A stretch of 64,000 bases of DNA from the NCBI GenBank assembly GCA_026168455.1, contig CM047426.1, positions 76,039,986 through 76,103,985 on the forward strand, read 5' to 3'. The position numbers and the translations under genes are program-made. Every line of letters begins with the position of its first letter. Position 1 is the stretch's first letter. The notes under the pieces were generated by a model. It ran no database searches. It saw nothing but the letters and a program-made list of their open reading frames with translations, and was not told where the DNA came from. This DNA comes from Theocolax elegans. Lineage: Eukaryota > Arthropoda > Insecta > Hymenoptera > Cerocephalidae. Positions 25,801 to 56,318 of this stretch are shown one piece after another.

Positions 25801-25993
25801 CATTTGAGACTTGATACACATGCTATATATAGACTTTTGTTTACCTCTAGACTGTCAGTTTGACGTTTGAAATTGTCATGCCGTAAACACATTGATTGTA
25901 TATATTTATGTAAGTGGTAAAGTTTGAATTTGTGATTCTGTTAACTGTTTGTTAACGAAAGGTTTTTTTTTTAAATAAACAGTGCCGGGACGA

Positions 25994-26260
25994 TGTCATT
26001 TCGCCTAATTGTCATTTCGCCTAATTGAATTTTTAGGCGATGTGACAATGTCATTTCGCCTAAATGAAAAATTTCCTTTTAGGCGTTTTGTCAGCGTCAT
26101 TTCGCCTAATTATATTTTTAGGCGATGTGACAATGTCATTTCGCCTAAAATGAAAACTTTTCAAAATTTCTTTTTAAGCATTTTAACAATGTCATTTCGC
26201 CTAATTAAAAAAATGAGATAAAAGTTTTAGGCGATGTGATAATGTCATTTCGCTTAAATT
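25994..26260 (+). promoter_or_regulatory. Subterminal array of seven GTCATTTCGCCTAA motifs, left end
   Basis: Seven direct copies of GTCATTTCGCYTAA start near 25994, 26008, 26048, 26096, 26135, 26190 and 26243. Four or more inverse partners (TTTAGGCGATGTGACAAT and variants) sit between them. The dense, regularly spaced, two-orientation array at the very tip is what a transposase binding region would look like; binding is inference. Confidence 0.7.
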
Positions 26261-26442
26261 TTCAAGAGATTTAGTAGTAGTCACTTAAGTGTTTTGATGG
26301 TGTAGTTACACCTAAATAAAAAGTCAATACAAATAAATCCTTATACATAGAAGGGTATATACATTAAACAAATTTAACAACATCTCTCAACAAATGAATA
26401 ACCCGTCAGAAAAGTAACTAAGTATATTTTTCGCATTTGTGT

Positions 26443-26512
26443 GTCGGCTCGGTCGGTATAGATCGGTCGGCTCATAGCCCGGAGACCCCGGATTCGCGTC
26501 CAGTCTCTGACG
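26443..26512 (+). repeat. tRNA-like (SINE-head-like) segment in left TIR
   Basis: GTCGGCTCGGTCGGTATAG matches a tRNA D-arm with box A. GGCTCATAGCCCGGAGA resembles an anticodon arm with CAT, and GGATTCGCGTCC resembles box B and the T-loop. Stem pairing is imperfect, so this is a tRNA-derived repeat, not a functional tRNA gene. It occurs in both TIR arms. Confidence 0.6.
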
Positions 26513-27666
26513 ATTGACAAAATTGATTAAATATTAATTAACAATCTTTTAGCGAGCGGAGCGATGCATGTGCTTCTTCATATATGCACACACATACATA
26601 TATGAGCAATTCCGAAAAAAATCAGCCTTTTCAAGCGTTCAAAAAGTTTGGGAAAAAAAGTCTCGGGCACTAAAACATCTTCCGGACCCGAATTTTCTTG
26701 TTATGTATAACATATCCTTATATAAAAATGTGATGGCCGGATGTTGTGAAGCCAAGTGAAACAACTATGTGATTGCTTTTCGTTTTGCGCATACGTCTAA
26801 AATATTGTAGGTTGATTTGACATCGCGGGGAAAGCGTTAATTTTCTTAACTAAATCAGAGTATAATAAATAATGAGTAAAAATATTATTAAAATTTGTCA
26901 TTCTAGGTAAATAAGAGAGCGTATATCGTTAAAAAAAAGCAAGAGCGCGCGGAGCGCCCATGGCTAATTCAAGTAGAAGAAAAATCCGTATACGTATACT
27001 AACCGTAAGTCCATGCAAACTTTTTTTAGAGCTTTTACATTGTTATAGCAAATTTTGTAAAAAAATGACTTCCACTTTAATCGTTTATAACTCGGAAACA
27101 AATAGAGATAGACACTCAAATTAAAAACCATAAGAAAGCTGAGATTTGAAAAAAATTTTAGCGAGTGTGTATCTTTATTTGTGAATTATAAGCAATCAAA
27201 GTAGAAATATTTTTTTAATTGCTTGGTAACGTGATCGTAACCAAGTAAAAATCTATAAATTTTATATAGATTTTATATTTATTTCATTGGAATCCTTTAT
27301 CAGAAACAAATAAAAAATATAGTTTGAAACTTGCCATCCATGACAATAGGGAATAAATCATAGACACCGATAACAAAAATTATCTTTTATATTCTTATAA
27401 AACTAAATTGATCGATTGATCGATTGAAGGATCGGGTTATATAAATTATAAGATGAATGTCCCTTGAATGGTGTCTATTCCTTCTGATTGGAAGAAAGCC
27501 TTAATTGTGTGTTCCTGAGTAAGTACTCTTTGTTCTGGACGGTTATAGATGTATGTCTGTCCAGTATCGTGGCTCTACGAGTTCTGATTTGGATTCGGCG
27601 GATCGGCGGCTGCTCCAGCAGTGTCCCGCTCGTAGTGGGAGGCTCCTGGAGTCAGCATTTCCTTAC

Positions 27667-27828
27667 CACGCGGTTCGCGGGGTTTTCCCGTTAAAGTTAC
27701 TGGGGTTGCGATTTTCTCCCAGTAACGAGTATTGATGGTGTATAAATTCGGCCGCGTTCGAATCGCGTTCCGCGAAGGCTGCGCGATCAGCGTGAGTATT
27801 CCTGATTCGGCAGTATTCGTACGACGAA
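27667..27828 (-). pseudogene. Left-arm counterpart of the GC-rich TIR frame, 5'-deleted
   Basis: Inverted copy of the 3' part of 54347-54561 with the GTAAGG donor intact (CCTTAC at 27661-27666). The start codon region is replaced by AT-rich sequence after GTCGTACGAATAC. Confidence 0.45.
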
Positions 27829-27875
27829 CTTTTACTTTTACATGTTACTGCCGATCGAAGTATGGCGCAATATAC

Positions 27876-28769
27876 CTAGATTCACGTCGGTCTTGAATCG
27901 TACGTAACAGATTATACAATTTTTTATCGGATTTTATGAGGTCTTTGCAAGAGGGATAAGTAATATGTTGTGTCCAGTATGTAAAAATCTTTGCATATCT
28001 TGCATGACTTCTAATAGCTTAAAGAAAATGCCGCACTATCGATATTACAGTTTTTTGTTTCATTCAATGAATAAGTAAAAATTTCAAATTGGGCCAAAAT
28101 ACTAACAATAATGATTTTTTAATAATAATTGAATTATTTTCGTCCACGCAGTTGATTCGTGCTAATAATTTTGTAATATGTAAGTAAATTAGACAAATTG
28201 CAGTTAATAAAAAATTGGACTGTACAAAACGTAAAATCGATAATTTCGTCCCAGTAGAAATTGAAACCATTTTTAATCTATAAACTAGCCAGTTTTAAAA
28301 AATCGCTAGAAAAAAAGGGTAATTCGCAAACTATAAAATGTATATATTTTCAACTCCAAAAGTGGTTATTCCAACATGCTCTATTTTTTACAATTTTGTT
28401 CTAAATTTTGATATTAATATTTATTATGTTTGAACAAATTTAGATTTGCTGAGATATATATGTATATAAATATAAATAACATTCTACGAATAGATACTTA
28501 TTTTTTGACGTTATATTTTTTTTTGTATTTATATAAGAATAGAATTCTATTATATTCTATTATTCCACGTAAAATTATTATTTGTAAACTATTATATTTT
28601 ATGTTTTAATATAAAAAAGTACGGTGTGATAGAATCAAGAATTACTTTTGATGCTGTGTTAAAACAAAAAACAATCATATATTATGTAATCACGAATATA
28701 ACCAATTTCATTCCTATCATAAATGTTTTTGCGAAACGATTATATAATTGTGCTAGACAAGATCGAAAC
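27876..28769. other. Upstream region of the transposase gene
   Basis: AT-rich sequence between the left TIR and the first exon. The promoter must lie here or in the TIR, but no single TATA or initiator can be chosen from many AT runs. Confidence 0.4.
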
Positions 28770-28996
28770 ATGGTTAAAAAACGTATAAAAGAAATTTGTT
28801 CAACGAATGTAAAAAACAATGAGATAAAGAAAAGAAAAAATGAAGACGAAGGAAATGAATCAAAAAATCTAAGATTAAAATTGAAAAATTTCGTGATTCA
28901 TAAAAAAAAGGTTAAGAAATGCAGTAATCCAACGATCCGAGGTCACCATCATAATGGTTATTTTTATAAAGTTCGAAACACAGTAGGAGCCACGAC
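28770..28996 (+). CDS. Transposase exon 1: basic leader and first half of FLYWCH finger
   Basis: ATG at 28770 gives MVKKRIKEIC and a Lys-rich leader, which could hold a nuclear-localisation signal. GHHHNGYFYKVRNTVGATT then begins the finger. The donor is GAC|GTAAGA. The open frame extends upstream to 28626, but without an ATG, so 28770 is preferred. Confidence 0.75.
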
Positions 28997-31900
28997 GTAA
29001 GAAATAATGTTAAAATATTGTATAAATATAGAGATAAAATAAAATATTTAAGCATTTTAAAACAACTAAAAATTCTTCATTATTTAACTTTGGACAATGT
29101 ATTTATACAGCTACTTAGTGTGCAAGCTTGTCGATTCCGCTGATCAAAAATGTTCTGGAACATGTACGTTACAAAAAGGACAATACAGAGAAGGAAAAAT
29201 AGCTCATAATCATCCTCGATCCAAGAAATTAAACAAGGTTCGAAAATTTAAAAGAAAGCTTTACAAAGCGGTGACTTCATCTGGAACGATAGAACTGAGC
29301 AGCGCCTACAACAGTTTAAAGCAAAAGTAAATTATTTAACAATATAACAATCATTTTTTTTATGCATCCTATTTACTTGTGAGCGTACATTGTTAAACTT
29401 TCAATTTATTTTGTTATATTAATAAGACAATTAATTATTACAACAAATATTAAAGACAACGATAGAAAATTACATGACTAATACTCTAAACTATGTATTT
29501 TTTTAATTATCATTAATCAATAATTACATTAAACTTAAATGTAACTTGAAATAGATTATGTAAAAGAAATTTTCTTTCTGATGATTTTGTACGACTATTA
29601 AGTAGTCATGTATTTTGTCTAAATGGAAATTTTTGTCCTTAATATGAAAATGATTTATCGCGACTTAAGGTAGTGGACACTTGCACATTTTTTTTTGCTA
29701 TTTTCGGGAATTTTTTTTATTGAAAAATATGTAAAATATCGATTTTTCGAATTCAAGTTACCAAACTACTGCCTTAATTAAATCACAGGAATTTAGTAGT
29801 TATTAATTTTGATTATTATTGCATTATTTTGATTATCAATTTACAATTAATGTTGCTGTGTGTAAAATTAACTGTAACTTCCACATTCTATTGATTGGAA
29901 GTTATGAAGCTGATACTTGATATTAAAAACTCTCCAAAGCTTTAATAAATACTATTATGTTATATAGATATCCAAAAGCTGCTAAATTGTTACCGTTCAG
30001 TAGTATCGAAAGGTCGCTATACAGATGGCGTGAAAAAGCATTAAACAAAATATTGTTTGGCAAAGTAACATCAATTGAGGATATGATTGCTTTACTCAAT
30101 AAAAAAACAAATCAAAAAGCTTTGCAGTATGTAGTTGGGAAAAAAATCTATCATATGGAATTTGATGTGATACATGCCGGTATTAATAAGCATATAGTGT
30201 TTTTTGATTCAACGCTTATCAAATCTCTGGAAGATGCAACTGAATGGAACGTGGATGCCACATACAAGGCTACTCCAATGCTGAAAGAAAAAATGCAACT
30301 TTTGACTGTAATGGCAGTCTATTTCGGAAAAGTAATGTTCTTTCAAATAAGAAATTTGTGTGTACTATATTACACTAAACGCAAAAAAGTTAGCAAAGAA
30401 GTGTGTTTTAAAAATGATGCCTAATTACTGTACTATTTTTTATCACAACCAGGTTGTTAATTATCCCGAAAAAGTAGCGATCAATAATTTTGATGCCGTA
30501 GGCGTAACTGTATATAATTTAAAAAATTATAAAAGCGAATTTCTGATAAATAATATTACGAAAGACTATAAAAAAAATCAAAATATTATAATTAAATATT
30601 AAATTAATTTTTTACGTTTTTAAAAATAGTAGGGGAGGACGGGGCTAAGTTGAACGTTTTTTTTTGTGAATTTTTTTCTCAGCGAAATTGAAATATTTTT
30701 ACACTCTGTATGGATAGAAAACAAGTTTAACATCTTAACTATATGCCTGATTTTTTCCAAGTGTAAAAATTCAGAAATAAAAAATTTACACTGGAGGTGA
30801 AAAAAAATCGTTTTGTTCAACTTAGCCCCGAGGCTGGGGCTAATTTGAACGTTTCTTGGGGCTAAGTTAGTCTATCTTTTAACATGGGATTTTTAACTTA
30901 AAAAATATTTTAATTAAATTAGCAATTTTACATAAATTAAAGTGTTTTAACTAATTTGACGTTTATTATCGTAACAACTACAGCCTGTAAAAATATTTAC
31001 TTTATAAAATAAAATCAATTACTTTAGTTTATTATGTTATACTTTTATAAAACGTAAGCCCAAAATGAAAAACTTGTTTTCTGCAGAACTTACGTTAACG
31101 CAGATAGATCTTCCCTGCTTACATATTATAGAATTTCTTGCAGATTTCTTACGTTTTTAAATATATACTAATCTATTAATGTTTATTTTAATGCAAAGTC
31201 ATATTTTATCTAACATCTGTCAAATCGTACTGCGTTAACGAACTTGCCGTACACAGGAAAGTATCGAAAAATAATGTAGTCTTAAACAAGTGTTTGTCGA
31301 TACCAATGAAAACGAATATTGGTAATGAAATCCGGTATTTATAAAGTACTAGACGACTGTATGCTACTTCTGTTGTTTAATTTTGTTGAAATCTAACCTA
31401 AAATTGACTTAAATTAATGTATTTCCACTAGTTCAACTTAGCCCCATGGTTTTGTTCAACTTAGCCCCAAATGCTTCAAATGACTTTAAATGCACATAAC
31501 TCTAGTAATAATTGACTGTCAGAGACCAGTTGCACGTCAAAATGTTCGTCGAAACAAATAGAATTCAACTATTTACCGCCGCGTATCGCAATATTTTTGT
31601 TTCGCGCAGAAACTGTATTTCTGCACGGTTAAAAAGATCCCGATTTAAAGCGCAAAAACACTTTTTTGGTACTAACTTTTCGGATGCTTTAAAATTTCCA
31701 AATCTACCTCGGGACAAAAATTTGTTGATTAAATATTAAGTTTTTTCCCCAGGCACAATTTAAAAAAATGCATCAAGGATAAAGTTATTCCATACGTTCA
31801 AGTTAGCCCCGTCCTCCCCTATACGCAAAGATATTGACACGCTCGTCTTGTAAATCATTCTCGCTGCAATCGGTTAATAGGCCCGACTCGCGCGTGAATT

Positions 31901-34900
31901 ACCTGCTTTATGCACTTAGTGATGTCAAATGTACTAAAATTTATTGCAGGCTGTTCCATTTGCGTGGGTGTTAATGACAAGGCGAAGAACTTGCGACTAT
32001 AGCAGAATTTTTCAGTTCTTTAAAAAGAAATGGGTTATACTAAAACCTGACATTGTCATATGCGACTTCGAAAAAGCGCTACACAAGTCACTGATGAAGG
32101 TTTTCTGCACTAACGTTAAAGGCTGTTATTTCCACTACGCGCAAGTATGTTATTAAATGATATAAAAAACTTAACACTCCGTGCGCGAAATCGTGTTTCG
32201 CGCACGCTTATTCGAAAACCGGTGACCTTTCTGCTATGTGCTGAATTGTACTATTTTCAGTAGCTGCACAAGTATGAAATAGTACATTACGGTACAAGTG
32301 TGCGAAACAGATGTAAGTCACGTACGAAACGTGGGTGGAAAATAAGACTCATGTGTAGGTCATTTGTTCCGTGCATTTGAATCGTAATATACTATTACAT
32401 TAGTTGCGATGTTTAGCACTATAAAATCATTAATAAGTTTTACTATTTGAGCAGAACGACGTTAATAACTTACACGAGTTGAAAATCATCTTTCACGTGT
32501 GTATCGGATGCTATTTTACTAGAAAACGGAGCCAAATTTTAATATTCTGCAATTATTTAGCATTATACTATTATTGATTTTCTTCAAATCGTAATTTATA
32601 AAGTAGTTAAATTAATTTTGTGTTAATTTTAATTAATAATATTTAAAATTAATGAAAAAGATATCCACATCGTAATTCAAAGTTATAAGCTAAATAATTG
32701 GCAACGTAAATAATGTTTGCAGCACAGTCACTCAAAAAAATAGTGTTTAATAAGAAGTTTTTATTGAGCAAAAACACTTTCTCTATCCTCAGGGGAATAT
32801 TTACACATTTTAGAAATTGAACCCATCTTTATGTATAAAGTAGCCATTGAAAAAATGGGCCAAAAATATCTACTTGCAAGCTATAAAGGAGCTATTTTTA
32901 CCCCTAACACATTAAAAATATTCAGATTTATACTAAGAAGTACTACGCTAACCCATTAATGCCTAAGATGACCAAAACTCTAACCTAAAAGTCACAACTT
33001 CGTTAATTCTTCGGTACCTCGTACTGTAATATACAGTCCTTAAGGGGAAGCCGTAGTCCTATGCTTTATACGTATATACCGACATTATCGATTTTTCGTT
33101 TTATGCAGTCAATTTATGTTTAATCGTAATTGTACGAACGTACCTATATTCTATGAAATCTATAGATTGTTGGTATGTTGGCCGAATTTGAAAATTTTAC
33201 GTATTCATTGAATAAAACGAAAAATCGTAACGTCGGTACTACGACTTCCCCTTAACTAGTACGTAATCTTTCTTACGAAAAAATGATAATTTTATAGGAT
33301 AATTAATTATTTATTCATGAAAATTAATTGTATATGGGTAAGCAATGATCATAGAAAGTGATTAAATTGGCAATTCAATATGGCGGCTATATGCATATGC
33401 TATTGCTTTTTTTGTTTTATTTTATTTTTTTCTTATTTTCTGTGACATTTTTTGAAACACGGCTCACAGGAATACTTCGTGAATCGATAGAGGTAGACAT
33501 AGCCATCTACCGTTTATTTCCAATTTTCAATTATGCAAAATAAATAATCCAATGAAGAATTTTCAATAGTTTTCGAATCTGGAATAAAAAATTTTTTTGC
33601 TGTCCACGAAAATATGGTCTCAATGCCCCAGATAAAACATCAGGCTTAAATTTTGGGACCATTACCAAGAAGAACTCAATTAATAAAACAATTTTTTTGT
33701 ATCACATGCACGAAAATCGCGTTTTTGCGCCCTAAAAATAGGGTCTAAAGTAGTCCTTTTTCGTCCGGCGGGCAAAAATATTTTCTATAAAAAACTACAA
33801 ATTCATATAAGAAATAACAAAAGTATAAATCATACCATGGGATGAAAAAGGACTCTATAAAAAAACGCCCGCTACCGCCCGCTACTCATAAAAAAAACGC
33901 AAATTAATCAAATTAACACTTAGATTAGCATTTGGGATCAAAATTATATATGACGTTTTCATCAAAAGTTGTATAGCGTGCAAGTAAACGCAAAATTTTA
34001 GTAATCTGGAGCATTAATGGACTAAGATTAGTTCATTTTAACTTGATTTTACTGATGTCAAAAGTGCATATAATTGAATTTTGCGAAGTATTGTCAAATA
34101 CGAATTTTATACAACTTCTTGTCAATTTTAGTTACATTGGCTTTGAATTAATTGTAATCGATAAGTGTTCATTAAGACATTTATTTATTCAATGTTAATT
34201 TATTTACTATTTATTACCAATTACATTTCTTATTATTATTATAGGCGTTATACCGCCAAGCTGTCAGAAAAGGATTTGCTGTAAAAAAAAAAAATTCGGA
34301 AAAAAATACAAAAGCCGACAAATTTTTAAAAACATTTATAGCTTTGGCTCTGCTGCCAAGTGAACGGATAGAATTGGAATTCTTAAAACTAAAAAAAAAA
34401 GTTGAGAAGGTATTTGCTGGCAAATACGATAGTTTCTTGAAGTATTATCAAAAGACGTGGATAGATGGGTACGGTCCAGCAGCATTTAGTGTTTTTAAAC
34501 AGAATAACAGGACTAATAATAATATTGAGGCATACCACAAACGACTTAATAGCAGAATTAAGTCTAAACTAACTGCTTCTTCGTTTATAGGTATGTTACT
34601 CAAACAAAAAATTGTTTTTTCACTCCAATTATCCAAAAATTCCACTTTATTGACCTCAGCGGAGGGACAAAAGTTACTTTTGCTCTCCGCAGTCACTTTT
34701 TACTTTCCGAACTCACTTTTTACTCTCGCACTCCTTTTTTTACTCTCCGCATTAACTTATTTTAAAAAACACACTTTTTATCACAATAATTAATTATTTG
34801 ATAATACAATATACCATAAATAACATGGCTCATTCCATTCATATTTGAACAGGCTATCACTTTATGAATTTTATTTTCGAACAAAAACTATTAAAATATC

Positions 34901-37900: not shown

Positions 37901-38450
37901 TTGTATATCTTACTTATTATTTATGCGTGAATGAATTCGTACAAAACTTGTTGTACAGTAAAGATTGGTAATTAAGAACGTAATGCGTGGCCAATAGCAC
38001 AAGTACATAATGTAATAATGCAGCGGTTAGAAAAGTAAAAATCTGAGGGGATAGTTAACGGTATATAATGGCTCTTGCGCCTATACTTGCGTCAGGCTCT
38101 GTCGAGCCTTTTGATAGCTATTTAAATTTGCTATTTTACATAAGAGGGTATTTGTTATCGAATCAAATTATTAATAAAAAATTATTGTCACAATTTTCTT
38201 GGAATTACGTAGACCTTGATGATGATCTCGACGAAGGTGCAGTAGATATTCTGGACGATAATTTGCAAGTTGAAAATGAAATCATTCAGAATGAGCAAGA
38301 TCTCACTGCGACTACCGTTAAACGTAAAAGACGGAGGATTCGTGGTAAGATACTAGAGAATTCTTTTACAATTCTAAAAACCTTGTTCTAAAAAAAATTC
38401 TGAAAAATTAAAAATTTCAATTGAAATACAGTAAATTCATGGTAATACAG

Positions 38451-38490
<40 letters not shown>

Positions 38491-45900: not shown

Positions 45901-48900
45901 TAATTTTTCTTAGCTATACAATATCACAATAACGTTATTACCGAGATGTACATGCATCAAAGCCGACTACTGTTGTAGCAAGGGTATTGATAATGTAAGT
46001 TGCGGAGATGGCACCAGTAAGAAAATATGGTTAAAAGATGGACTAGGTGTATGATAATTTCTACCCAGTAGCCAGTAAGTATATCTCATACATACAGCAG
46101 TATAATTGCGAAAGGTTGGACACATTCAGATCTACTCTCGTAATTTATCCTCGCTTATCTGTATTGTTATATGTTCGTCTAGGTGTATGATAATCTCTAC
46201 CCAGTAGACAGTAAGGAAATATTATACATATAGCAGCCAAATTGCGAAAGGATGGAAATATTCAGATTTACTCTTGTAATTTTTTCTTAGCTACACAATA
46301 TCACAATAACGTTATTACCGAGATGTACATGCATCAAAGCTGACTACTGTTGTAGCAAGGGTATTGATAATGTAAGTTGCGGAGATGGCACCAGTAAGAA
46401 AATATGGTTAAAAGATGGACTAGGTGTATGATAATTTCTACCCAGTAGCCAGTAAGTAAATCTCATACATACAGCAATTTAGTAGCGAAACGATGGACAC
46501 ATACAGACTTACTCTAATATCTTGTATTGGCTTAACTGTAATGTCATAAGTTCATCTAGGTGTATGATAAACTCTTCGCAGTAGACAGTAAGTAAATATC
46601 ATACATGTAGCAGCTAAATTGCGAAAAGATGGAAATATTAAGATCTACTCTTGTAATTTTTCTTAGCTACACAATATCACTATAACGTTTTGACCGAGAT
46701 GTACATGCATCAAAGCTGACTACTGATGTAGCAAGGGTATTGATACTGTAAGATACGAAGCTGGCACCAGTAAGAAAGTATGGTTAAAAATTAGAGTACG
46801 TGTATGATAATTTCTACCGAGTATGCACTAAGTGAATCTCATAAATACAGCAATTTAATTGCGAAAGGATGCACAGATTCAAATCCAAACTCGTAATTTA
46901 TCCTCGCTTATCTGTATTGTTATATGTTCGTCGAGGTGTATGATAAACTCTACCCAGTAGGCAGTAAGGAAATATCATATATATAGCAGCCAAATTGCGA
47001 AAAGATGGAAATATTCAGATACATTCTTGTAATTTTTCTTCGCTTAACAATATCACTATAACATTGCGACCGAGATGTACATGCATCTAAGCTGACTACT
47101 GATGTAGCAATGGTATTGATAATGTAAGATGCGGAGCTGGCACCAGTAAGAAAATATTGTTAAAAGGTGGACTAGGTGTATGATAATTTTTACCGAGTAG
47201 GTACGAAGTAAATCTCATACCTGCAGCAATATAATTGCGAAAGGATGCACAGATTCAGATCCACACAGGTAATTTATCCTCGCTTAACTGGATTGTTATA
47301 TGTTCGTCTAGGTGTATGATAATCTCTACCCAGTAGGCAGTAAGGAAATATCATACATATAGCAGCTAAATTGCGAAAGGATGGAAATATTCAGATTTAC
47401 TCTTGTAATTTTTCTTAGCTATACAATATCACAATAACGTTATTACCGAGATGTACATGCATCAAAGCTGACTACTGTTGTAGCACGGGTATTGATAATG
47501 TAAGTTGCGGAGATGGCACCAGTAAGAAAATATGGTTAAAAGATGGACTAGGTGTATGATAATTTCTACCCAGTAGCCAGTAAGTAAATCTCATACATAC
47601 AGCAATTTAATAGCGAAGCGATGGACACATTCAGACTTACTCTAATATCTTATATTGGCTTAACTGTAATGTCATAAGTTCATCTAGGTGTATGATAAAC
47701 TCTACGCAGTAGACAGTAAGTAAATATCATACATGTAGCAGCTAAATTGCGAAAAGATGGAAATATTCAGACCTACTCTTGTAATTTTTCTTAGCTACAC
47801 AATATCACTATAGCGTTTTGACCGAGATGTACATGCATCAAAGCTGACTGCTGATGTAGCAAGGGTATTGATACTGTAAGATACGGAGCTGGCACCAGTA
47901 AGAAAGTATGGTTAAAAATTAGAGTACGTGTATGATAATTTCTACCGAGTATGCACTAAGTAAATCTCATAAATACAGCAATTTAATTGCGAAAGGATGC
48001 ACAGATTCAAATCCAAACTCGTAATTTACCCTCGCTTATCTGTACTGGTATATGTTCGTCTAAGTGTATGATAAACTCTACCCAACAGGCAGTAAGTAAA
48101 TATCATACATGTAGCAGCTAAATTGAGAAAAGGTGGAAATATTCAGATGTACTCTTGTAATTTTCCTTCACTTAACAATATCACTTTAACATTGCGACCG
48201 AGATGTACATGCATCAAAGCTGACTACTGATGTAGCAATGGTATTGATAATGTAAGTTGCGGAGCTGGCACCAGTAAGAAAATATGGTTAAAAGATGGAC
48301 TAGGTGTATGATAATTTCTACCCAGTAGCCAGTAAGTAAATCTCATACATACAGCAATTTAATAGCGAAGCGATGGACACATTCAGACTTACTCTAATAT
48401 CTTATATTGGCTTAACTGTAATGTCATAAGTTCATCTAGGTGTATGATAAACTCTACGCAGTAGACAGTAAGTAAATATCATACATGTAGCAGCTAAATT
48501 GCGAAAAGATGGAAATATTCAGACCTACTCTTGTAATTTTTCTTAGCTACACAATATCACTATAGCGTTTTGACCGAGATGTACATGCATCAAAGCTGAC
48601 TGCTGATGTAGCAAGGGTATGATACTGTAAGATACGGAGCTGGCACCAGTAAGAAAGTATGGTTAAAATTAGAGTACGTGTATGATAATTTCTACGAGTA
48701 TGCACTAAGTAAATCTCATAAATACAGCAATTTAATTGCGAAAGGATGCACAGATTCAAATCCAAACTCGTAATTTACCCTCGCTTATCTGTACTGGTAT
48801 ATGTTCGTCTAAGTGTATGATAAACTCTACCCAACAGGCAGTAAGTAAATATCATACATGTAGCAGCTAAATTGAGAAAAGGTGGAAATATTCAGATGTA

Positions 48901-51900
48901 CTCTTGTAATTTTCCTTCACTTAACAATATCACTTTAACATTGCGACCGAGATGTACATGCATCAAAGCTGACTACTGATGTAGCAATGGTATTGATAAT
49001 GTAAGATGCGGAGCTGGCACCAGTAAGAAAATATTGTTAAAAGGTGGACTAGGTGTATGATAATTTTTACCGAGTAGGTACGAAGTAAATCTCATACATG
49101 CAGCAATATAATTGCGAAAGGATGCACAGATTCAGATCCACACACGTAATTTATCCTCGCTTAACTGCATTGTTATATGTTCGTCTAGGTGTATGATAAT
49201 CTCTACCCAGTAGGCAGTAAGGAAATATCATACATATAGCAGCCAAATTGCGAAAGGATGGAAATATTCAGATTTACTCTTGTAATTTTTCTTAGCTATA
49301 CAATATCACAATAACGTTATTACCGAGATGTACATGCATCAAAGCTGACTACTGATGTAGCAAGGGTATTGATACTGTAAGATACGAAGCTGGCACCAGT
49401 AAGAAAGTATGGTTAAAAATTAGAGTACGTGTATGATAATTTCTACCGAGTATGCACTAAGTGAATCTCATAAATACAGCAATTTAATTGCGAAAGGATG
49501 CACAGATTCAAATCCAAACTCGTAATTTATCCTCGCTTATCTGTATTGTTATATGTTCGTCTAAGTGTATGATAAACTCTACCCAACAGGCAGTAAGTAA
49601 ATATCATACATGTAGCAGCTAAATTTCGAACAGGTGGAAATATTCAGATGTACTCTTGTAATTTTCCTTCACTTAACATTATCAATATGACGTTGTAAAT
49701 GAGATGTACATGAATCAAAGCTGACTTCTCATGTAGCAAGGGTATTGATACTGTAACATACGGAAGCTGGCACCAGTAAGAAAGTATGGTTAAAATTAGA
49801 GTACGTGTATGATAATTTCTACCGAGTATGCACTAAGTGAATCTCATAAATACAGCAATTTAATTGCGAAAGGATGCACAGATTCAAATCCAAACTCGTA
49901 ATTTATCCTCGCTTATCTGTATTGTTATATGTTCGTCTAAGTGTATTATAAACTCTACCCAACAGGCAGTAAGTAAATATCATACATGTAGCAGCTAAAT
50001 TTCGAAAGGTGGAAATATTCAGATGTACTCTTGTAATTTTCCTTCACTTAACATTATCAATATGACGTTGTAAATGCGATGTACATGAATCAAAGCTGAC
50101 TACTGCATGTAGCAAGGGTATTGATAATGTAACGATGACGGAGATGGCTACCAGTAAGAAAAGTATGGTTAATAAGGTTAGAGTACGTGTATGATAATTT
50201 CTACCGAGTATGCACTAAGTAATCTCATAAATACAGCAATTTAATTGCGAAAGGATGCACAGATTCAAATCCAAACTCGTAATTTATCCTCGCTTAACTG
50301 TATTGTTATATGTTCGTCTAAGTGTATTATAAACTCTACCCAGTAGGCAGTAAATAAATATCATACATGTAGCAGCTAAATTGCGAAAGGATGGAAATAT
50401 TCAGATGTACTCTTGTAATTTTCCTTCACTTAACATTATCAATATGACGTTGTAAACGAGATGTACATGAATCAAAGCTGACTACTGATGTAGCAATGGT
50501 ATTGATAATGTAAGATGCGGAGCTGGCACCAGTAAGAAAATATTGTTAAAAGGTGGACTAGGTGTATGATAATTTCTACCGAGTATGCACTAAGTAAATC
50601 TCATAAATACAGCAATTTAATTGCGAAAGGATGCACAGATTCAAATCCAAACTCGTAATTTATCCTCGCTTAACTGTATTGTTATATGTTCGTCTAAGTG
50701 TATTATAAACTCTACCCAGTAGGCAGTAAATAAACATCATACATGTAGCAGCTAAATTGAGAAAAGATGGAAATATTCAGATACATTCTTGTAATTTTTC
50801 TTCGCTTAACAATATCACTATAACATTGCGACCGAGATGAACATGCATCAAAGCTGACTACTGATGTAGCAATGGTATTGATAATGTAAGATGCGGAGCT
50901 GGCACCAGTAAGAAAATATTGTTAAAAGGTGGACTAGGTGTATGATAATTTTTACCGAGTAGGTACGAAGTAAATCTCATACATGCAGCAATATAATTGC
51001 GAAAGGATGCACAGATTCAGATCCACACACGTAATTTATCCTCGCTTAACTGCATTGTTATATGTTCGTCTAGGTGTATGATAATCTCTACCCAGTAGAC
51101 AGTAAGGAAATATCATACATATAGCAGCCAAATTGCGAAAGGATGGAAATATTCAGATTTACTCTTGTAATTTTTCTTAGCTACACAATATCACAATAAC
51201 GTTATTACCGAGATGTACATGCATCAAAGCTGACTACTGTTGTAGCAAGGGTATTGATAATGTAAGTTGCGGAGATGGCACCAGTAAGAAAATATGGTTA
51301 AAAGATGGACTAGGTGTATGATAATTTCTACCCAGCAGCCAGTAAGTAAATCTCATACATACAGCAATATAATTGCGAAAGGTTAGACACATTCAGATCT
51401 ACTCTCGTAATTTATCCTCGCTTATCTGTATTGTTATATGTTTTTTTAAGATAAAACCGCGATCAAATTTAAATTCACGCTTTGAAATTGGGCCGTAAAC
51501 AAAAAATTTTTTTTTATATTGCGATCGTCTAATAACTTGTATATAAAAGTTGAATTTAAATAGTTAACAGTAATAGTAATACTTTAAATTCAACCGAGGG
51601 AGCGTGAGCATCGGGGACAAAAATGACTAGTTTTCATTATTTGCTAATAAATATTTTCAGTAAGTCTCGGATAATTGTAATTTTAACTTTATTGTCTAAA
51701 ACAAAACAGAATTTATAGAAAAATAAAATCATCCTTATTAAATTCCAGAATTATCAAGTTATTTTTCTGGTATCCCAGAAACTTATTAAAATGCTTTACC
51801 CGTATCCCAGAAACTTTTTAAAATAATTTACTGGTATCCCAGAAACCTATTAAATGACGTTACTGGTATCCCAGAAACTGACATTTTCTTTTTCTGGGAG

Positions 51901-53958
51901 ATCCCTGAATTTGGAAAGTTTACTTCTAGTATCCCAGAAAAGTCTTTAACCTTTTCTTGGACGTCCCAGAAACCAGTGTTAGACCTATTAGTTTTCTGGG
52001 ATGTCCCGGAAACTGCAAAAAATCCGAGATGCTGTAGATCCGCATTCAGAATCGTCCCAGAAACATGTGTTAGATGTATATATATATATATATATATGTA
52101 TTGTAGATATATATTGAATACTATTTTTTAACATCCGTATGCGAAACGCCATTTAGCGCACGCTTAATCAAAAACTGCAATTATTTATACTGCAATAAAT
52201 ATTACAAATTTGGTATAAATTTTGTATACTACCTGTAGGGGAGGGTGGAGAAACTAAAAATTGTTTGTATTTCCTTTTTTTCCTATAAAGAACAATAATA
52301 TTTTACACTTGCAATTGTGAAAATATCAAATAACTTAAAGTAACTCGTAAATTTATTTACTCACAATATTTATCTATGAAACGTTTTATTTTACGCTTTA
52401 AAAAAAGAGATTTTATACAAAATTGCTCCGCAATTCTGGGATAATTTTAAACATACCATAGGGTAATTTATTTGTATACATTTGCGACTTACTTATTTTT
52501 TCAACATAAACACCAAAATCTTAAAACCTAACTGTCAGAACATCACGAATATACTTTCTATGAACTCGTCTTTTTAGTCTCAAACTTATCGATATTTTGT
52601 GCAAGTTGAATTCACGAGGGGTAAATTTGAACATGTACTTAATTCGGTGCAAAAACAAAATAACAAATTATTTACATTTTCATGTTGAACAACATTATTG
52701 TAATGGTTAAACATTTTTAATTGTGTTCATTTTATTAGTTTGATTTTATCTCTTGGTGGTTTTCCAATGTAGATTTGTAGAATTTTATTGATCTTCGCAA
52801 TTCGAATTATTAAAAAGGATAAAAAGAAAAAACGTAACACATTACATTTTTTCATTTCGTAACGTTTCGGTGGTCACTCCCACCCTCTTCAGACTAAAAA
52901 TTTAATTACAATAATGTTAATACATCTCGGATAATAATGAAAAAAATTTAATACAACAAAAATAAATTGAAAATCATACCTTCTATTATCAATATCGCAA
53001 TCAGTATACAATATAAATTCGTCGAAAGCTGAGTTAAGTTTTCGTTTCTTTTTCCTCATTATAAATTGTGAATTTTAAGTTATATATTACAAACAAAATA
53101 ACACATTACAAATGCAAAATGTTAACATGTTTAGCAGCCTTTTATGTATTCATAATAAATTAATGACTATAGTTAAAAAGGTTTTTTTAATAGGGGAAAA
53201 ATTTTTATAGACGCACCTCGGCCGGTCATGAAGGTTAAGCAGCGCCGAGCGCGGTAACTAGTTGAATGGGTGACCGTTTTTCGGACATAGCTTAAATAAT
53301 CGATTAGGTGTTTTTTCATATTCTACAACATGAACGGGAGGTGTGACATTCGGTTTCGATGTTAAGGCCTACGCAATGTGACCTTGTCATCTAAACAGAA
53401 TGTTTCAATACACCATCCTTCTCGGAGGAGGTTTTCCTAATTGGCATTTATCTCACGGGGTTTGGCCATAGGTTTTCCCTCTCTCCACCGGCAGAACCCC
53501 CGGCGAATGCGAGAAACTGGGGTAAAGGGGACTAAAATTGGAAAAGGAATAAAGGTGTAGGAGATACGTAAAAACCTGTAAAACGGTGTACGTGGAAACT
53601 ACCAAAATTTAATTTATTACTAGCTAGTTAACATTTCAAAGTTTTCCATTACGACATGCTACAATCAACAAGTAGTGAGTAAAAAGCAGAAAATTTTTAA
53701 TGCGTAGTACGCAGCAGTAAATTAATATTTTTTTTAAATCTAATTACTGCCAAAATAAATTAATTATAGTTTTAACGTGTGTGAGTTTCAAATAGGCAGA
53801 AACTTAATCGCAATTTTTTTCATTTCATAGATAATGGTATTCTTCAGGCCGATGTCCCAAAAATTAGAGTTCGGGATTCACAACTCGACATAACGAGCCA
53901 ACGTCGAACACGTGGCAGAATAACGAAGGTACCAGCGAGATTTAAAGATTATGTTTAA
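28770..53958 (+). CDS. FLYWCH zinc-finger MULE transposase, at least nine exons
   Basis: Exons are 28770-28996, 29111-29326, about 29940-30331, 31950-32144, 34245-34590, 36353-36589, 38213-38344, 39729-39860 and 53831-53958, roughly 660 codons. The order is basic leader, FLYWCH-type zinc finger (DNA binding), MULE catalytic core, a conserved helical segment, and acidic exons ending KVPARFKDYV. Catalytic acidic residues are D in VDATYKA (30254), D in ICDFEKAL (32064) and E in NNNIEAYHKRLN (34527); GCYFHYAQ after the second D is the MULE signature. All checked junctions keep frame, except the start of exon 3, which I could not settle. It would cut and rejoin the element ends. The last intron is about 14 kb because of the satellite-bearing insertion, so correct splicing is doubtful. 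Confidence 0.85.
29111..29326 (+). CDS. Transposase exon 2: second half of FLYWCH zinc finger
   Basis: After TTATACAG the frame continues TYLVCKLVDSADQKCSGTC and then REGKIAHNHP. Metal ligands are the C of VCK, the C of KCSG, and the two H of HNH. Splicing exon 1 to exon 2 places GATT directly before YLVC, as in known FLYWCH domains. The donor is CAAAA|GTAAAT. Confidence 0.85.
29327..29939. other. Transposase intron 2
   Basis: AT-rich; no nested element recognised. Confidence 0.45.
29940..30331 (+). CDS. Transposase exon 3: first catalytic aspartate
   Basis: The open frame is clear from LYRYPKAAKLLPFSSIERSL through EWNVDATYKATPMLKEKMQ to LLTVMAVYFGK, with donor AAA|GTAATG. D in VDATY is the first MULE acidic residue. 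The 5' boundary is uncertain: no acceptor before 29957 gives the right phase with exon 2. Confidence 0.8.
30632..31819. mobile_element. TA-flanked element with GTTCAACTTAGCCCC motifs, in intron 3
   Basis: The ends are GGGGAGGACGGGGCTAAG and, inverted, GGGGAGGACGGGGCTAAC; TA flanks both sides (30630-30631, 31820-31821). Extra copies of the tip motif lie inside: TTCAACTTAGCCCC near 30817, GGGGCTAATTTGAACG near 30835, GGGGCTAAGTTAG near 30858, and two copies near 31433 and 31453. It is 1188 bp and has no transposase. The TA duplication fits mariner-type or related elements, but the class is not certain. A diverged relative may start at 52241. Confidence 0.75.
31950..32144 (+). CDS. Transposase exon 4: second catalytic aspartate
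   Basis: 65 codons in phase 0 after TTATTGCAG: AVPFAWVLMTRRR, then ILKPDIVICDFEKALHK, then FCTNVKGCYFHYAQ, with donor CAA|GTATGT. D of CDFEKA and the CYFHYAQ motif are diagnostic of MULE transposases. Confidence 0.9.
32145..34244. other. Transposase intron 4 with hairpin and nested MITE
   Basis: A 10-bp perfect hairpin, GTGCGCGAAA...TTTCGCGCAC, lies at 32181-32205. A similar but weaker one (TGCGAAACGCC...GCGCACGC) is at 52139-52164. GAAAATCATCTTTCACG near 32485 recalls 6630. A piggyBac-type MITE is listed separately; 33540-34200 shows nothing else. Confidence 0.5.
33044..33251. mobile_element. TTAA-flanked (piggyBac-type) MITE, 208 bp
   Basis: GGGGAAGCCGTAGTCC and, inverted, GGGGAAGTCGTAGTACC form the ends, with ATCGATTTTTCGTTTTAT continuing the pairing. 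TTAA lies exactly at both edges (33040-33043, 33252-33255), the duplication typical of piggyBac. Confidence 0.8.
34245..34590 (+). CDS. Transposase exon 5: catalytic glutamate region
   Basis: After TTATTATAG: ALYRQAVRKGFAV, a Lys-rich stretch over a 12-A run, TFIALALLPSERIE, YYQKTWIDGYGPAAFSVF, and RTNNNIEAYHKRLNSRIK. E of NIEAYH is the third catalytic residue. The donor is ATAG|GTATGT, leaving phase 1. Confidence 0.9.
34824..35952. mobile_element. Foldback element with 8-bp TSD in intron 5 (1129 bp)
   Basis: ATAAATAA flanks it at 34816-34823 and 35953-35960. The ends contain TGGCTCATTCCATTCATATT and, inverted, TGGCTGATTCCATTCATATT. Arms are palindromic over about 350 bp, including CTTCTATTTCGTATTTA. 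A second, inner palindrome is built on GCCTCAAAAAGTTGAATACA. The 8-bp duplication suggests a hAT-type non-autonomous element; no gene is inside. Confidence 0.8.
36353..36589 (+). CDS. Transposase exon 6
   Basis: 237 nt after TATTTTAG: DMIKQLLACYRVDIM, TPKIRTTLRNDKILNVWADY, and SILRNYVGDFVKNLQFNYEE. The donor is TCAG|GTATTT. Same length and boundaries as the - strand exon at 18066-18302. Confidence 0.88.
36751..36966. mobile_element. Inverted-repeat MITE in intron 6, about 216 bp
   Basis: GAGACTGTCTCACCTTCGGG, continuing TCACGGATCTTAACCAAAC, pairs with GTTTAGTTAAGATCCGTGAT and GGTGAGACACTC at the other end. The middle is AT-rich. The target duplication is not clear. Confidence 0.7.
36967..38212. 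other. Remainder of transposase intron 6
   Basis: Nothing further recognised. GATCCCGGTTCAAGCACGG near 37421 recalls a tRNA T-arm but lacks the rest of a tRNA. Confidence 0.4.
38213..38344 (+). CDS. Transposase exon 7: acidic stretch and basic patch
   Basis: 132 nt after ATTACGTAG: DLDDDLDEGAVDILDDNLQ, ENEIIQNEQD, TTVKRKRRRIRG. The donor is CGTG|GTAAGA. Confidence 0.8.
38345..39728. other. Transposase intron 7 with TA microsatellite
   Basis: (TA)n at 38455-38486; otherwise AT-rich sequence without a recognised element. Confidence 0.5.
39729..39860 (+). CDS. Transposase exon 8: acidic
   Basis: 132 nt after CTAAGCAG: DFDDDTEEDMAHDTDKN, TCLELEYNEVAIHH, IECKRSKVSG. The donor is CTG|GTAAGA. The satellite-bearing element starts 70 bp downstream, in the intron. 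Confidence 0.78.
39931..40136 (+). promoter_or_regulatory. Subterminal TTTCTGGGAT motif cluster, left
   Basis: Copies of TTTCTGGGAT or TTTCTAGGAT start near 39942, 39959, 39999, 40019, 40039, 40063, 40087 and 40125; some continue to the palindrome TTTCTGGGATACCAGAAA. Likely recognition sites for the element's unknown transposase (inference). Confidence 0.6.
40137..40730. other. Non-repetitive left part of the satellite-bearing element
   Basis: A 75-codon frame at 40307-40534 has no recognisable character, and an apparent acceptor at 40347 is judged coincidental. Nothing else seen. Confidence 0.4.
40731..40866. repeat. Short tandem repeat of about 38 bp, four copies
   Basis: The unit contains TTCTACGCAATAGTAAATAA followed by AATTATATTATTAATT. 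TCTACGCAATAG resembles TCTACCCAGTAG of the main satellite, so this may be the degenerate border of the array. Confidence 0.8.
43878..44554. mobile_element. PIF/Harbinger-like foldback MITE, copy 2, inside the satellite
   Basis: Same ends and same 677-bp length as 663-1339. TAA flanks it at 43875-43877 and 44555-44557. Deleting the element and one TAA restores the satellite phrase GCACTAAGTAAATCTC, which proves insertion into the finished array. Confidence 0.93.
45137..45236. other. Assembly gap of 100 N
   Basis: Exactly 100 N inside the satellite, the usual placeholder for a gap of unknown size. The true array length is therefore unknown. Confidence 0.99.
45237..45837. other. Foreign AT-rich segment between gap and resumed satellite
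   Basis: It has no similarity to the satellite and no recognised repeat or gene. The array resumes at 45838 in mid-unit (AAATATCATACATATAGCAG). It could be another insertion whose left edge is in the gap, or an assembly join artefact. Confidence 0.6.
47571..49070. repeat. Higher-order repeat: two near-identical 752-bp blocks
   Basis: Blocks starting at 47571 and 48323 (two 376-bp units each) match almost perfectly, including rare variants such as AATAGCGAAGCGATGGAC. The second differs mainly by lone missing bases (GGGTATGATAC for GGGTATTGATAC, CTACGAG for CTACCGAG), as seen with recent amplification plus long-read consensus errors. Confidence 0.75.
51438..51759. other. Non-satellite right part of the satellite-bearing element
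   Basis: AT-rich, nothing recognised, between array end and subterminal motif cluster. Confidence 0.45.
51760..52075 (-). promoter_or_regulatory. Subterminal ATCCCAGAAA motif cluster, right
   Basis: Mostly inverse copies, near 51763, 51802, 51834, 51865, 51930, 51965 and 52053, with some direct copies (TTTCTGGGAGATCCC near 51890, TTTCTGGGATGTCCC near 51994). Confidence 0.6.
52076..53213. other. Continuation of transposase intron 8
   Basis: TAGGGGAGGGTGGAG near 52239 and GAGGGGTAAATTTGAACATG near 52617 suggest a diverged relative of the element at 30632-31819. No equivalent of the small exon at 10563-10652 was found. Confidence 0.4.
53219..53600 (+). mobile_element. 5S rRNA-derived SINE-like element
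   Basis: GGTTAAGCAGCGCCGAGCGC, GGTAACTAGTTGAATGGG and TGACCG closely follow the second half of a 5S rRNA gene, which includes the internal box A and box C of the RNA polymerase III promoter. The first half of 5S is absent or unrecognisable. A GC-richer tail of about 300 bp (for example CCACCGGCAGAACCCCCGG) follows, unlike its surroundings. This fits a 5S-headed SINE, though its 3' end and target duplication were not resolved. Confidence 0.6.
53831..53958 (+). CDS. Transposase terminal exon
   Basis: After CATTTCATAG the frame reads DNGILQADVPKIRVRDSQ, DITSQRRTRG, RITKVPARFKDYV, then TAA at 53956-53958. The - strand remnant has the matching exon at 9270-9116. It lies past the satellite-bearing insertion, 356 bp before the right TIR. 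Confidence 0.82.
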
Positions 53959-54233
53959 GCAAAAGAGAATATTTGAATTGTGAAAGGAGGTATACCTCAA
54001 TTATACCTGCTATGTTTATCATTTTGTATGTGCTGTAAATATATGCTTTGTTGAAATATGCTTCGTAAACATTACTTTTTTTCAAATATATACCTAAAAT
54101 ATCTCGCACAAACTGTGAAAAATTTCGTTTTACATTTCTAACGGGTACCAATATGCGACAGAGACGTGTGCAATGTCTTTGTTGAGAAAGCACTTTTGGA
54201 AAAATACATTTCCCCAGTGGTACTCGTGTCAAT
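53959..54233. other. Downstream of transposase, before right TIR
   Basis: Holds the presumed polyadenylation region (AT-rich) and, near 54130-54225 on the - strand, the possible SINE body beside the tRNA-like head. Confidence 0.4.
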
Positions 54234-54306
54234 CGTCAGAGGCTGGACGCGAATCCGGGATCTCCGGGCTATGAGCCGAACGCTCTATACCGACCGAGCC
54301 GACACA
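54234..54306 (-). repeat. Better-preserved tRNA-like segment beside the right TIR
   Basis: On the - strand it reads GTCGGCTCGGTCGGTATAG, then AGCGTTCGGCTCATAGCC, then GGATTCGCGTCCAGCCTC. The D-stem GCTC/GAGC pairs fully here, unlike in the TIR copies, so this copy is closer to the parent tRNA-derived sequence. What follows (near 54130-54225) resembles 19381-19450 and may be the SINE body. Confidence 0.6.
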
Positions 54307-54346
54307 CGCCACACGTATATTACGCCATACTTCGATCGGCAGTAAC

Positions 54347-54561
54347 ATGATCCGCGAACCCGAAAAAAATCGTTCAGCGTCGGATTCCCATCCGGCTCAA
54401 TCGTCGTACGAATACCGCCGAATCAGGAATACTCACGCTGATCGCGCAGCCTTCGCGGAACGCGATTCGAAAGCGGCCGAATTTATACACCATCAATACT
54501 CGTTGCTGGGCGAAAATCGCAACCCCAGTAACTTTAACGGGAAAACCCCGCGAACCGCGTG
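54347..54561 (+). CDS. GC-rich open frame with splice donor in right TIR, unknown
   Basis: ATG at 54347 opens MIREPEKNRSASDSHPAQ, then YEYRRIRNTHADRAAFAERD and SLLGENRNPSNFNGKTPR. An excellent 5' splice signal, GTG|GTAAGG, follows at 54562. GC content is far above the surroundings. The left arm holds the same frame inverted (27828-27667): about 54 codons remain open, two with replacement changes (R to C, K to N) and two synonymous, and its 5' part is deleted. It points outward, toward the transposon tip. I do not recognise the protein. It could be a captured host first exon or a chance frame in GC-rich DNA. Confidence 0.4.
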
Positions 54562-55749
54562 GTAAGGAAATGCTGACTCCAGGAGCCTCCCACTACGAGC
54601 GGAACACTGCTGGAGCAGCCGCCGATCCGCCGAATCCAAATCAGATCTCGTAGAGCCACGATACTGGACAGACATACATCTATAACCGTCCAGAACAAAG
54701 AGTACTTACTCAGGAACACACAATTAAGGCTTTCTTCCAATCAGAAGGAATAGACACCATTCAAGGGACATTCATCTTATAATTTATATAACCCGATCCT
54801 TCAATCGATCAATCAATCTCGAGTTACGTACGCAACAAATCTATCTGTGACGATTTAGTTTTATAAGAATATAAAAGATAATTTTTGTTATCGGTGTCTA
54901 TGATTTATTCCCTATTGTCATGGATGGCAAGTTTCAAACTATATTTTTTATTTGTTTCTGATAAAGGATTCCAATGAAATAAATATAAAATCTATATAAA
55001 ATTTATAGATTTTTACTTGGTTACGATCACGTTACCAAGCAATTAAAAAAATATTTCTACTTTGATTGCTTATAATTCACAAATAAAGATACACACTCGC
55101 TAAAAATTTTTTCAAATCTCAGCTTTCTTATGGTTTTTAATTTGAGTGTCTATCTCTATTTGTTTCCGAGTTATAAACGATTAAAGTGGAAGTCATTTTT
55201 TTACAAAATTTGCTATAACAATGTAAAAGCTCTAAAAAAAGTTTGCATGGACTTACGGTTAGTATACATATACGGATTTTTCTTCTACTTGAATTAACCA
55301 TGGGCGCTCCGCGCGCTCTTGCTTTTTTTTAACGATATCCGCTCTCTTATTTACTTAGAATGACAAATTTTAATAATATTTTTACTCATTATTTATTATA
55401 CTCTGATTTAGTTAAGAAAATTAACGCTTTCCCCGCGATGTCAAATCAACCTACAATATTTTAGACGCATGCGCAAAACGAAAAGCAATCACATAGCCGT
55501 TTCACTTGGCTTCACAACATCCGGCCATCACATTTTTATATAAGGATATGTTATACATAACAAGAAAAATCGGGTCCGGAAGATGTTTTAGTGCCCGAGA
55601 CTTTTTTTTCCCAAACTTTTTGAACGCTTGAAAAGGCTGATTTTTTTCGGAATTGCTCATATATGTATGTGTGTGCATATATGAAGAAGCACATGCATCG
55701 CTCCGCTCGCTAAAAGATTGTTAATTAATATTTAATCAATTTTGTCAAT

Positions 55750-55822
55750 CGTCAGAGACTGGACGCGAATCCGGGGTCTCCGGGCTATGAGCCGACCGAT
55801 CTATACCGACCGAGCCGACACA
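55750..55822 (-). repeat. tRNA-like segment in right TIR
   Basis: Inverted counterpart of 26443-26512 with the same base changes in the D-arm (GATCGGTCGG), as expected for TIR copies. Confidence 0.6.
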
Positions 55823-56008
55823 CAAATGCGAAAAATATACTTAGTTACTTTTCTGACGGGTTATTAATTTGTTGAGAGATGTTCTTAAATTTGTTTAATG
55901 TATATACCCTTCTATGTATAAGGATTTATTTGTATTGACTTTTTATTTAGGTGTAACTACACCATCAAAACACTTAAGTGACTACTACTAAATCTCTTGA
56001 AAATTTAA

Positions 56009-56268
56009 GCGAAATGACATTATCACATCGCCTAAAACTTTTATCTCATTTTTTAAATTAGGCGAAATGACATTGTTAAAACGCTTAAAAAGAAATTTTG
56101 AAAAGTTTTCATTTTAGGCGAAATGACATTGTCACATCGCCTAAAAATATAATTAGGCGAAATGACGCTGACAAAACGCCTAAAAGGAAATTTTTCATTT
56201 AGGCGAAATGACATTGTCACATCGCCTAAAAATTCAATTAGGCGAAATGACAATTAGGCGAAATGACA
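56009..56268 (-). promoter_or_regulatory. Subterminal array of seven GTCATTTCGCCTAA motifs, right end
   Basis: Mirror image of the left array, with the same number and spacing of motifs, ending seven bases from the transposon tip. Confidence 0.7.
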
Positions 56269-56282
56269 TCGTCCCACAGTGC

Positions 56283-56318
56283 CTGATGAGGTCGACGTAT
56301 CTTTGTCGACGAAACGTC
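56283..56318 (+). ncRNA. Hammerhead-ribozyme-like core in Penelope-like 3' region
   Basis: CTGATGAG is followed by GTCGAC, an eight-base loop and GTCGAC (a perfect 6-bp stem II), and then GAAAC. These are the conserved hammerhead core strands; Penelope-like elements are known to carry hammerheads. A GTC lies directly after GAAAC. Stem I/III partners are not obvious, and the upstream strand was separated by the giant transposon, which inserted immediately 5' of the core. Confidence 0.55.

Follow-up and report, generated by a model that had tools for sequence, protein, structure and literature searches.

The window analysed here is a 64,000-nucleotide stretch of the Theocolax elegans genome (NCBI GenBank assembly GCA_026168455.1, contig CM047426.1, positions 76,039,986 to 76,103,985 of the forward strand). 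It holds a long element with inverted arms, a spliced gene and a target-site duplication (TSD), whose features are collected in Table 1. Self-alignment of the window yielded two terminal inverted repeats (TIRs), with 97.07% identity over 1,875 aligned positions when 25987-27827 was compared with 56275-54401 in inverted orientation; weaker similarity extended inward to about 27875/54318. The element tips read GGGACGATGTC on the left and GACATCGTCCC on the right, and an exact ACAGTGCC lies immediately outside each. The arm limits and the exact 8-bp TSD given in a first-pass annotation of this DNA agreed with the self-alignment and with the junctions as read. Shared tips and TIRs are features of Mutator-like elements (MULEs). 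We interpret the locus as a putatively autonomous Mutator-like DNA transposon, probably of the Phantom group, with a native mobile unit of ~18.1 kb and 1.9-kb inverted arms, and assign this reading, which is drawn from sequence comparison, a probability of roughly 94%.

Table 1. Features of the element and its target in the window, and full-length copies elsewhere in the assembly
Feature	Position	Strand	Remark
Left part of Penelope-like target element	25269..25986	+	GIY-YIG ORF 25261-25800; own ~15-bp duplication at 25254-25268
Left TSD ACAGTGCC	25979..25986	.	read at junction, with flank control
Window copy	25987..56275		30,289 bp
5' TIR	25987..27875	+	strong match to 27827, weaker to ~27875
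Subterminal array	25994..26257	+	10 half-sites TGTCATTTCGCCTAA, <=3 mismatches; both orientations, some imperfect palindromes
Transposase exon 1	28770..28996	+	N-terminus, first half of FLYWCH-like finger
Transposase exon 2	29111..29326	+	remainder of FLYWCH-like finger, C...C...HNH
Transposase exon 3	29968..30331	+	first putative catalytic Asp, NVDATYK, read by eye
MITE-like inverted-repeat insertion, intron 3	30629..31822	.	within stretch collinear with C4b
Transposase exon 4	31950..32144	+	second putative catalytic Asp, ICDFEKAL, read by eye
MITE-like inverted repeat, TTAA ends, intron 4	33040..33253	.	within stretch collinear with C4b
Transposase exon 5	34245..34590	+	putative catalytic Glu, NNIEAYH, read by eye
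Imperfect foldback repeat, intron 5	34815..35962	.	present in other five full copies
Transposase exon 6	36353..36589	+	exon model
Transposase exon 7	38096..38391	+	3' limit uncertain: internal GTAAGA donor, length differs among copies
12.1-kb insert	39925..52070	.	window copy only, 0/5 other full copies; (TA)n tract, inverted ends
Assembly gap, 100 N	45137..45236	.	within satellite array
3' TIR	54315..56275	-	strong match 54401-56275
Mirror array	56005..56268	-	10 half-sites TGTCATTTCGCCTAA, motif count
Right TSD ACAGTGCC	56276..56283	.	read at junction, with flank control
Right part of Penelope-like target element	56276..56403	+	followed by second ~15-bp duplication at 56404-56418
Copy C4a	C4:28321885-28339992		18,108 bp
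Copy C4b	C4:80399092-80417305		18,214 bp
Copy C3a	C3:8144933-8164492		19,560 bp
Copy C2b	C2:75486824-75506392		19,569 bp
Copy C7	C7:36371789-36393235		21,447 bp

Between the arms, a model of seven exons with AG acceptors, GT donors and compatible phases encodes 626 amino acids with no internal stop. The spliced model matched the Pfam MULE domain PF10551 (E 1e-10, 42.3 bits, cut-off 27.6), the DDE transposase domain that characterizes the superfamily; nothing above the Pfam cut-offs was found in five single open reading frames (ORFs) of the element. The element had been proposed to carry its own spliced gene, and the uninterrupted 626-amino-acid frame with its MULE domain supports this. A transfer RNA (tRNA) scan and an Rfam scan at gathering cut-off returned nothing. 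Elsewhere in the window, a diverged relative of the transposase was seen as a remnant on the minus strand, in two pieces 6 kb apart (11756-11935 and 18064-18309), with 79% amino acid identity to exon 6 and 60% to exon 7.

Genome searches were performed on the window's own assembly (658 Mb). With an end query, for which the best 40 of 83 candidates were scored, at least five further full-length copies with exact tips in inverted orientation were found. Their TSDs read TAAAAATC, GGTTAACCC, CACCAGATG, TCCAGGAT and TAATTAAC; together with ACAGTGCC in the window, the duplication is exact in 6/6 copies, with lengths of 8, 8, 9, 9, 8 and 8 bp, each copy having a different target, all within the 8-11 bp typical of the MULE superfamily. 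As controls, left flanks were paired with right flanks of other copies, with no exact match longer than 2 bp in 30 pairings, and 9,594 shifted placements of the flanks gave four exact 8-mers. The first-pass annotation had called for other copies with the same tips and 8-bp duplications, and all five other full-length copies had exact duplications of 8 or 9 bp. An inner-arm query (best 40 of 135 candidates scored) gave, among the candidates scored, six full-length matches, six shorter matches at the opposite arms (one in two pieces) and a 167-bp fragment on contig C1094. These matches correspond to six elements of two arms each, plus the C1094 fragment.

The insertion point lies in an element that we take to be Penelope-like from its GIY-YIG domain; no reverse transcriptase was seen in it. 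The domain, in the left-flank ORF, scored 23.3 bits against a Pfam cut-off of 22.6. The ~15-bp duplication of this target element, ATTTTAAATAAACAA, lies outside the whole 30 kb, and an empty paralogue is located near window position 59799. A search with the joined flanks was carried out with the best 40 of 155 candidates scored; 42 of the 44 listed matches spanned the junction, at up to 97% identity, and in 4/4 loci read the flanks were joined by a single ACAGTGCC. The nested duplications, the empty sites and the presence or absence of the 12.1-kb insert place the events in the order Penelope-like insertion, Mutator element, satellite-bearing insert. With the same tips and their own duplications in six copies and empty target sites elsewhere, the proposal of a single Mutator-like transposition unit was upheld.

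Adjoining the insertion point, the Penelope-like target carries a hammerhead-like CTGATGA...CGAAAC motif at 56283-56315, a pattern with one occurrence where 0.02 was expected. The fold of the joined flanks was not clearly better than that of shuffles (z -1.63, 15/200 as good), and Rfam gave nothing at the motif in the four empty sites with E up to 1. A type III hammerhead match below the gathering score was located elsewhere, at 2634-2704 of locus L058. A hammerhead ribozyme at the insertion point was thus left unconfirmed, as a motif.

The transposase exons were found in all six full-length copies, and the window copy and C4a encode the same protein with no break in the frame. C4b has a longer last exon with no in-frame stop there. 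Because the exon-model frames of C3a, C2b and C7 are broken and the last exon of C4b is altered, not every copy would be autonomous. The unit could instead be non-autonomous and cross-mobilised, with another transposase moving the arms and the internal gene as a passenger; other diverged MULE genes are present in the genome, and frames broken in three of six copies are compatible with such a passenger. We consider this unlikely, since two copies encode the same uninterrupted protein and the gene and the ends occur together in every one of the six full copies.

The size of the mobile unit was derived from comparison of the copies. C4b and the window copy are collinear from tip to tip except for indels <100 bp and the 12.1-kb insert, with identities of 99.2% and 98.7% on either side of it. 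The unit common to the copies is ~18.1 kb long and includes the repeats in introns 3-5 that resemble miniature inverted-repeat transposable elements (MITEs) or foldback repeats; private changes aside, its collinear blocks are 97.7-99.6% identical across copies. Changes private to single copies are an insert of 1.4 kb (C3a), expansion of an end array (C2b) and, for C7, the replacement of ~0.6 kb by 4.8 kb together with a shortened 3' part. One such change, the 12.1-kb satellite-bearing insert, brings the window copy to 30.3 kb; it is located downstream of the last identified exon, where the other copies have only a (TA)n tract. Since the 100-N gap lies inside the satellite array, 30.3 kb is an assembly length. 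The unusual size of the element had been put down chiefly to later insertions in the introns. This did not hold: the ~18.1 kb, intron repeats included, is shared, and the excess of the window copy is the one insert past the last exon. Growth of the introns after insertion was thereby ruled out as the source of the large size; the intron repeats, located in sequence common to other copies, predate the recent spread, and the large size is a family property because the ~18.1-kb form is common to the copies. A short Mutator element of 3-4 kb, its apparent size due to repeats accumulated inside each copy after insertion, could draw on the MITE-like repeats in the introns and on the private inserts of the window copy, C3a and C7. 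Yet the ~18.1-kb content is collinear, intron repeats included, in copies that each have their own duplication, so that it travelled as a unit. The short element is contradicted for the recent spread, and we regard it as very improbable.

In the 12.1-kb insert, a ~376-bp satellite array occupies the centre, at about 40938-51450, and the motif TTTCTGGGAT is repeated near the ends. A near-perfect palindrome of ~690 bp is present inside the array (43873-44559) and again at 659-1344 of the window. Whether the array belongs to the element proper, as in an aphid Phantom element, was also considered, and this was ruled out by the absence of the insert from the other five copies. A Mutator family targeting TA microsatellites is known in Medicago (PMC4486113).

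The age of the spread was assessed over 17,107 columns represented in every one of the six copies. In these, the window copy differed from C2b at 3 columns, from C4a at 17, from C4b at 57 and from C3a at 77; the value of 409 for C7 is inflated by misaligned private sequence, and the aligned blocks of C7 and C4b are 98.7-99.6% identical. Pairwise alignment of the window copy with C2b, which ends ~0.56 Mb away, gave four substitutions and short length differences. Two of the four lie at the tip, where the expanded array of C2b is misaligned, leaving 2-3 real substitutions. With so few in 17-18 kb, the whole unit appears to have moved recently, although the evidence for mobility is indirect. Spread by segmental or assembly duplication instead of transposition, to which the almost identical C2b and window copy on the same chromosome and the inverted partial copy with mirrored flank on C3 might point, deserves hardly any weight, as tip flanks and 8-9-bp duplications differ in 6/6 full copies and empty sites exist for the window copy; it is contradicted for the six full copies and may hold for the C3 partial copy.

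Several observations weigh against a putatively autonomous ~18.1-kb Mutator-like transposon. C2b and the window copy are nearly identical, which could indicate segmental duplication; their flanks and duplications differ, however. Several differences between these two copies are 1-bp length changes that may be assembly errors, and the window copy contains an assembly gap. The exon-model frame is broken in three copies, as described above. The FLYWCH match of the transposase scored 15.1 bits, below the Pfam cut-off of 23.6, and covered profile positions 13-62 of 62; a C..C..HNH ligand pattern is visible by eye in this weak match. No outside relative was found among 7,997 scored candidates of a collection of 5.8 billion proteins, and six peptide patterns found none in IMG/VR. 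The genome has 29 exact occurrences of the tip pattern and a further 25 with a single mismatch, against 0 in the reversed control; only 12 of the 29 exact tips belong to the six full copies. The 17 others comprise C3:8134505, a partial inverted copy that was not counted, and 16 diverged, single or unexamined ends; for eight single exact-tip ends that were read, no partners were found. Diverged tip pairs at C2:28.29-28.33, C3:23.37-23.42 and C2:27.87-27.94 Mb had no matching duplication.

The partial inverted element end at C3:8134505 lies 10.4 kb from the full copy C3a, and its flank mirrors that of C3a at C3:8144933; it may be an inverted duplication or an assembly artefact. Pairs with the tips GGGACAATGTC were also considered as further copies and were ruled out, as their inverted symmetry runs beyond the tip. 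The symmetry was present 100 bp past the tip in six of seven GGGACAATGTC pairs (the exception being a 177-bp pair on C1056) and in a pair at C4:46.1 Mb, and it reached 1.55 kb in two pairs followed further outward. A long-TIR family with a Mutator-tip-like sequence within its TIR was seen at C3:66961512-66968071, C4:77580478-77587875, C6:56935556-56945432 and C7:4794380-4799509 and on C946 and C1082. In the two pairs followed, its TIR runs outward for 1.55 kb to about CAGTAGTATGTGGGCC, and two (L034, L035) of five compared are palindromes over their full length, among the matches listed (six each).

The outer part of each arm carries short repeated motifs. The half-site TGTCATTTCGCCTAA, with <=3 mismatches, matches the window 22 times, against 2.26 matches expected from shuffling; of the 22, 20 fall within the outermost ~280 bp at either end of the element. 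Each end has 10 half-sites in the window copy, C4a, C4b and C3a and 9 in C7; in C2b the two sides have 33 and 10. The arrays are putative transposase-binding sites. Subterminal repeats within the TIR are also found in most long-TIR Muta families of Aedes, a trait not required of all Phantom members. Beyond the arrays, the two arms of the window copy differ at 19/1,560 positions, and same-side arms of the window copy and C2b at 1/1,559. Because same-side arms of the closest copies differ less than the two arms of one copy, the difference between arms is inherited, and dating by arm divergence was dropped for the same reason. In C4b, the 3' arm is a mosaic with 5'-type differences, and the two arms differ at only 5/1,560 positions. 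We read the arms as old, differing from each other and occasionally swapping patches by conversion, a mechanism suggested by the mosaicism observed in this one copy.

Host-gene capture in the GC-rich inner arm was considered and is unsupported; dispersed repeats match its query positions 164-368 with 68-87% identity. A segment of ~81 bp that looks tRNA-like to the eye is present in both arms (26439-26519 and 55743-55823) and just inside the right arm (54227-54307); ARAGORN finds no tRNA in it.

We propose that the spliced FLYWCH-MULE transposase would bind each arm at the half-site array of its outer ~280 bp and, by analogy with its family, would use its DDE site to cut at the GGGACG tips. The whole unit would then be inserted with a staggered cut of 8-9 bp, whose repair would leave the observed duplications. 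For the window copy, the empty sites show insertion into an older, 5'-truncated Penelope-like element, and the distribution of the 12.1-kb satellite-bearing insert suggests that it was gained afterwards in the (TA)n tract. The arms may trade patches by conversion.

A larger related lineage may also be present. At C2:28287847-28333904, two tips were found at a distance of 46 kb, the left with a single mismatch, together with diverged transposase exons; the exon list covered the best 70 of 473 candidates. A second, partial copy lies at C2:51066036-51101180, with its right end at C2:51101180. No match to exon 1 or 2 was found for it among the same best 70 of 473 candidates, and no left end in the 3 kb examined. 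Identity between the right ends of the two copies is 98.8% as far as the tip, past which the sequences are different, and is 99.7% in a 10-kb sample from the interior. Since C2:28287847-28333904 has no matching duplication, the 46-kb relative remains a lead. A lineage of giant Mutator elements in this genome that routinely mobilises 18 kb and more is a tentative idea, with the odds somewhat against it. If it were true, the lineage would have very long introns and arms as a lasting trait, and no practical limit near 6-7 kb would apply to its transposases.

The element was compared with known elements as described in the available parts of the papers cited here. In Aedes aegypti, Muta1 is 3,198 bp long with 145-bp TIRs and Muta5 is 3,496 bp long with 151-bp TIRs and 3 exons (PMC5225508). 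FLYWCH and MULE domains are given for 13/14 Aedes Muta families, with 8-9-bp duplications, proteins of 416-554 amino acids and, in 10/12 long-TIR families, subterminal tandem repeats inside the TIRs (PMC5225508); Dupeyron et al. 2019 assigned the Muta elements to the Phantom group (PMC6446971). The present element resembles them in its MULE domain, accompanied by a weak FLYWCH-like match, its 8-9-bp duplications, its subterminal TIR repeats and, as for Muta5, its introns, but differs in its ~18.1-kb length, 1.9-kb TIRs, at least seven exons in the model and 626 amino acids. Phantom group 20 (Table 1 of PMC6446971) has TIRs of 18-613 bp, duplications of 8-10 bp where given, and FLYWCH in some members; the duplication length agrees with ours, whereas our TIRs are 1.9 kb long. 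The 'mini-satellite after the transposase ORF' of an aphid Phantom (PMC6446971) is not matched, because the satellite here belongs to an insert absent from the other five copies.

Long TIRs are shared with Drosophila FB4, but at ~700 bp those of FB4 are under half as long; it has 9-10-bp duplications and a captured host gene, its transposase is described as unknown and the authors favour a MULE (PMC8277862). The root-knot nematode Mutator/Foldback element Tm1 encodes a Phantom-like FLYWCH-MULE transposase of 496 amino acids, makes 9-bp duplications and has composite, internally repetitive TIRs of variable length, with predominant TIR-primer amplicons of ~0.9 and 2.3 kb (PMC3169594). Array copy number varies here too, in C2b, but Tm1 is far smaller. 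A survey of 100 animal genomes found MULEs to be rare in animals (median 0; PMC8277862). In the available part of a review of giant transposons, no Pack-MULE above 7 kb is cited and transposition efficiency is said to fall above 6 kb of cargo, while 100-200 kb was mobilised by artificial constructs of Sleeping Beauty, piggyBac and P (PMC6431247). Red-alga CACTA elements were enlarged to 16-20 kb with 4-5 ORFs (PMC6431247), in contrast to the one identified gene with long introns found here. No animal MULE of ~18 kb was found among the open-licence papers listed by the literature searches, as judged from titles and the starts of abstracts.

Of the remaining features of the window, two further long near-perfect palindromes lie at 13546-14557 (1.0 kb) and 14599-16969 (2.4 kb). 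An ORF at 23509-24039 encodes a tyrosine recombinase (Pfam Phage_integrase, 9.8e-10), likely from another mobile element.

Judged by its sequence, the element is a Mutator transposon much larger than the few-kb insect elements in the papers cited, and it appears to have moved recently; it represents an unusually long unit, with unusually long TIRs, of a known kind. It would provide a natural test of the size limit for a cut-and-paste DNA transposon. With six similar copies, empty sites and ordered nested insertions, the arms, the binding arrays and the gene could be tested together. The arms are not homogenised within a copy and combine inherited arm-specific differences with putative patches of conversion. 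This pattern may bear on why TIR length varies so much among Mutator elements, which Dupeyron et al. pose as a question still to be answered (PMC6446971).

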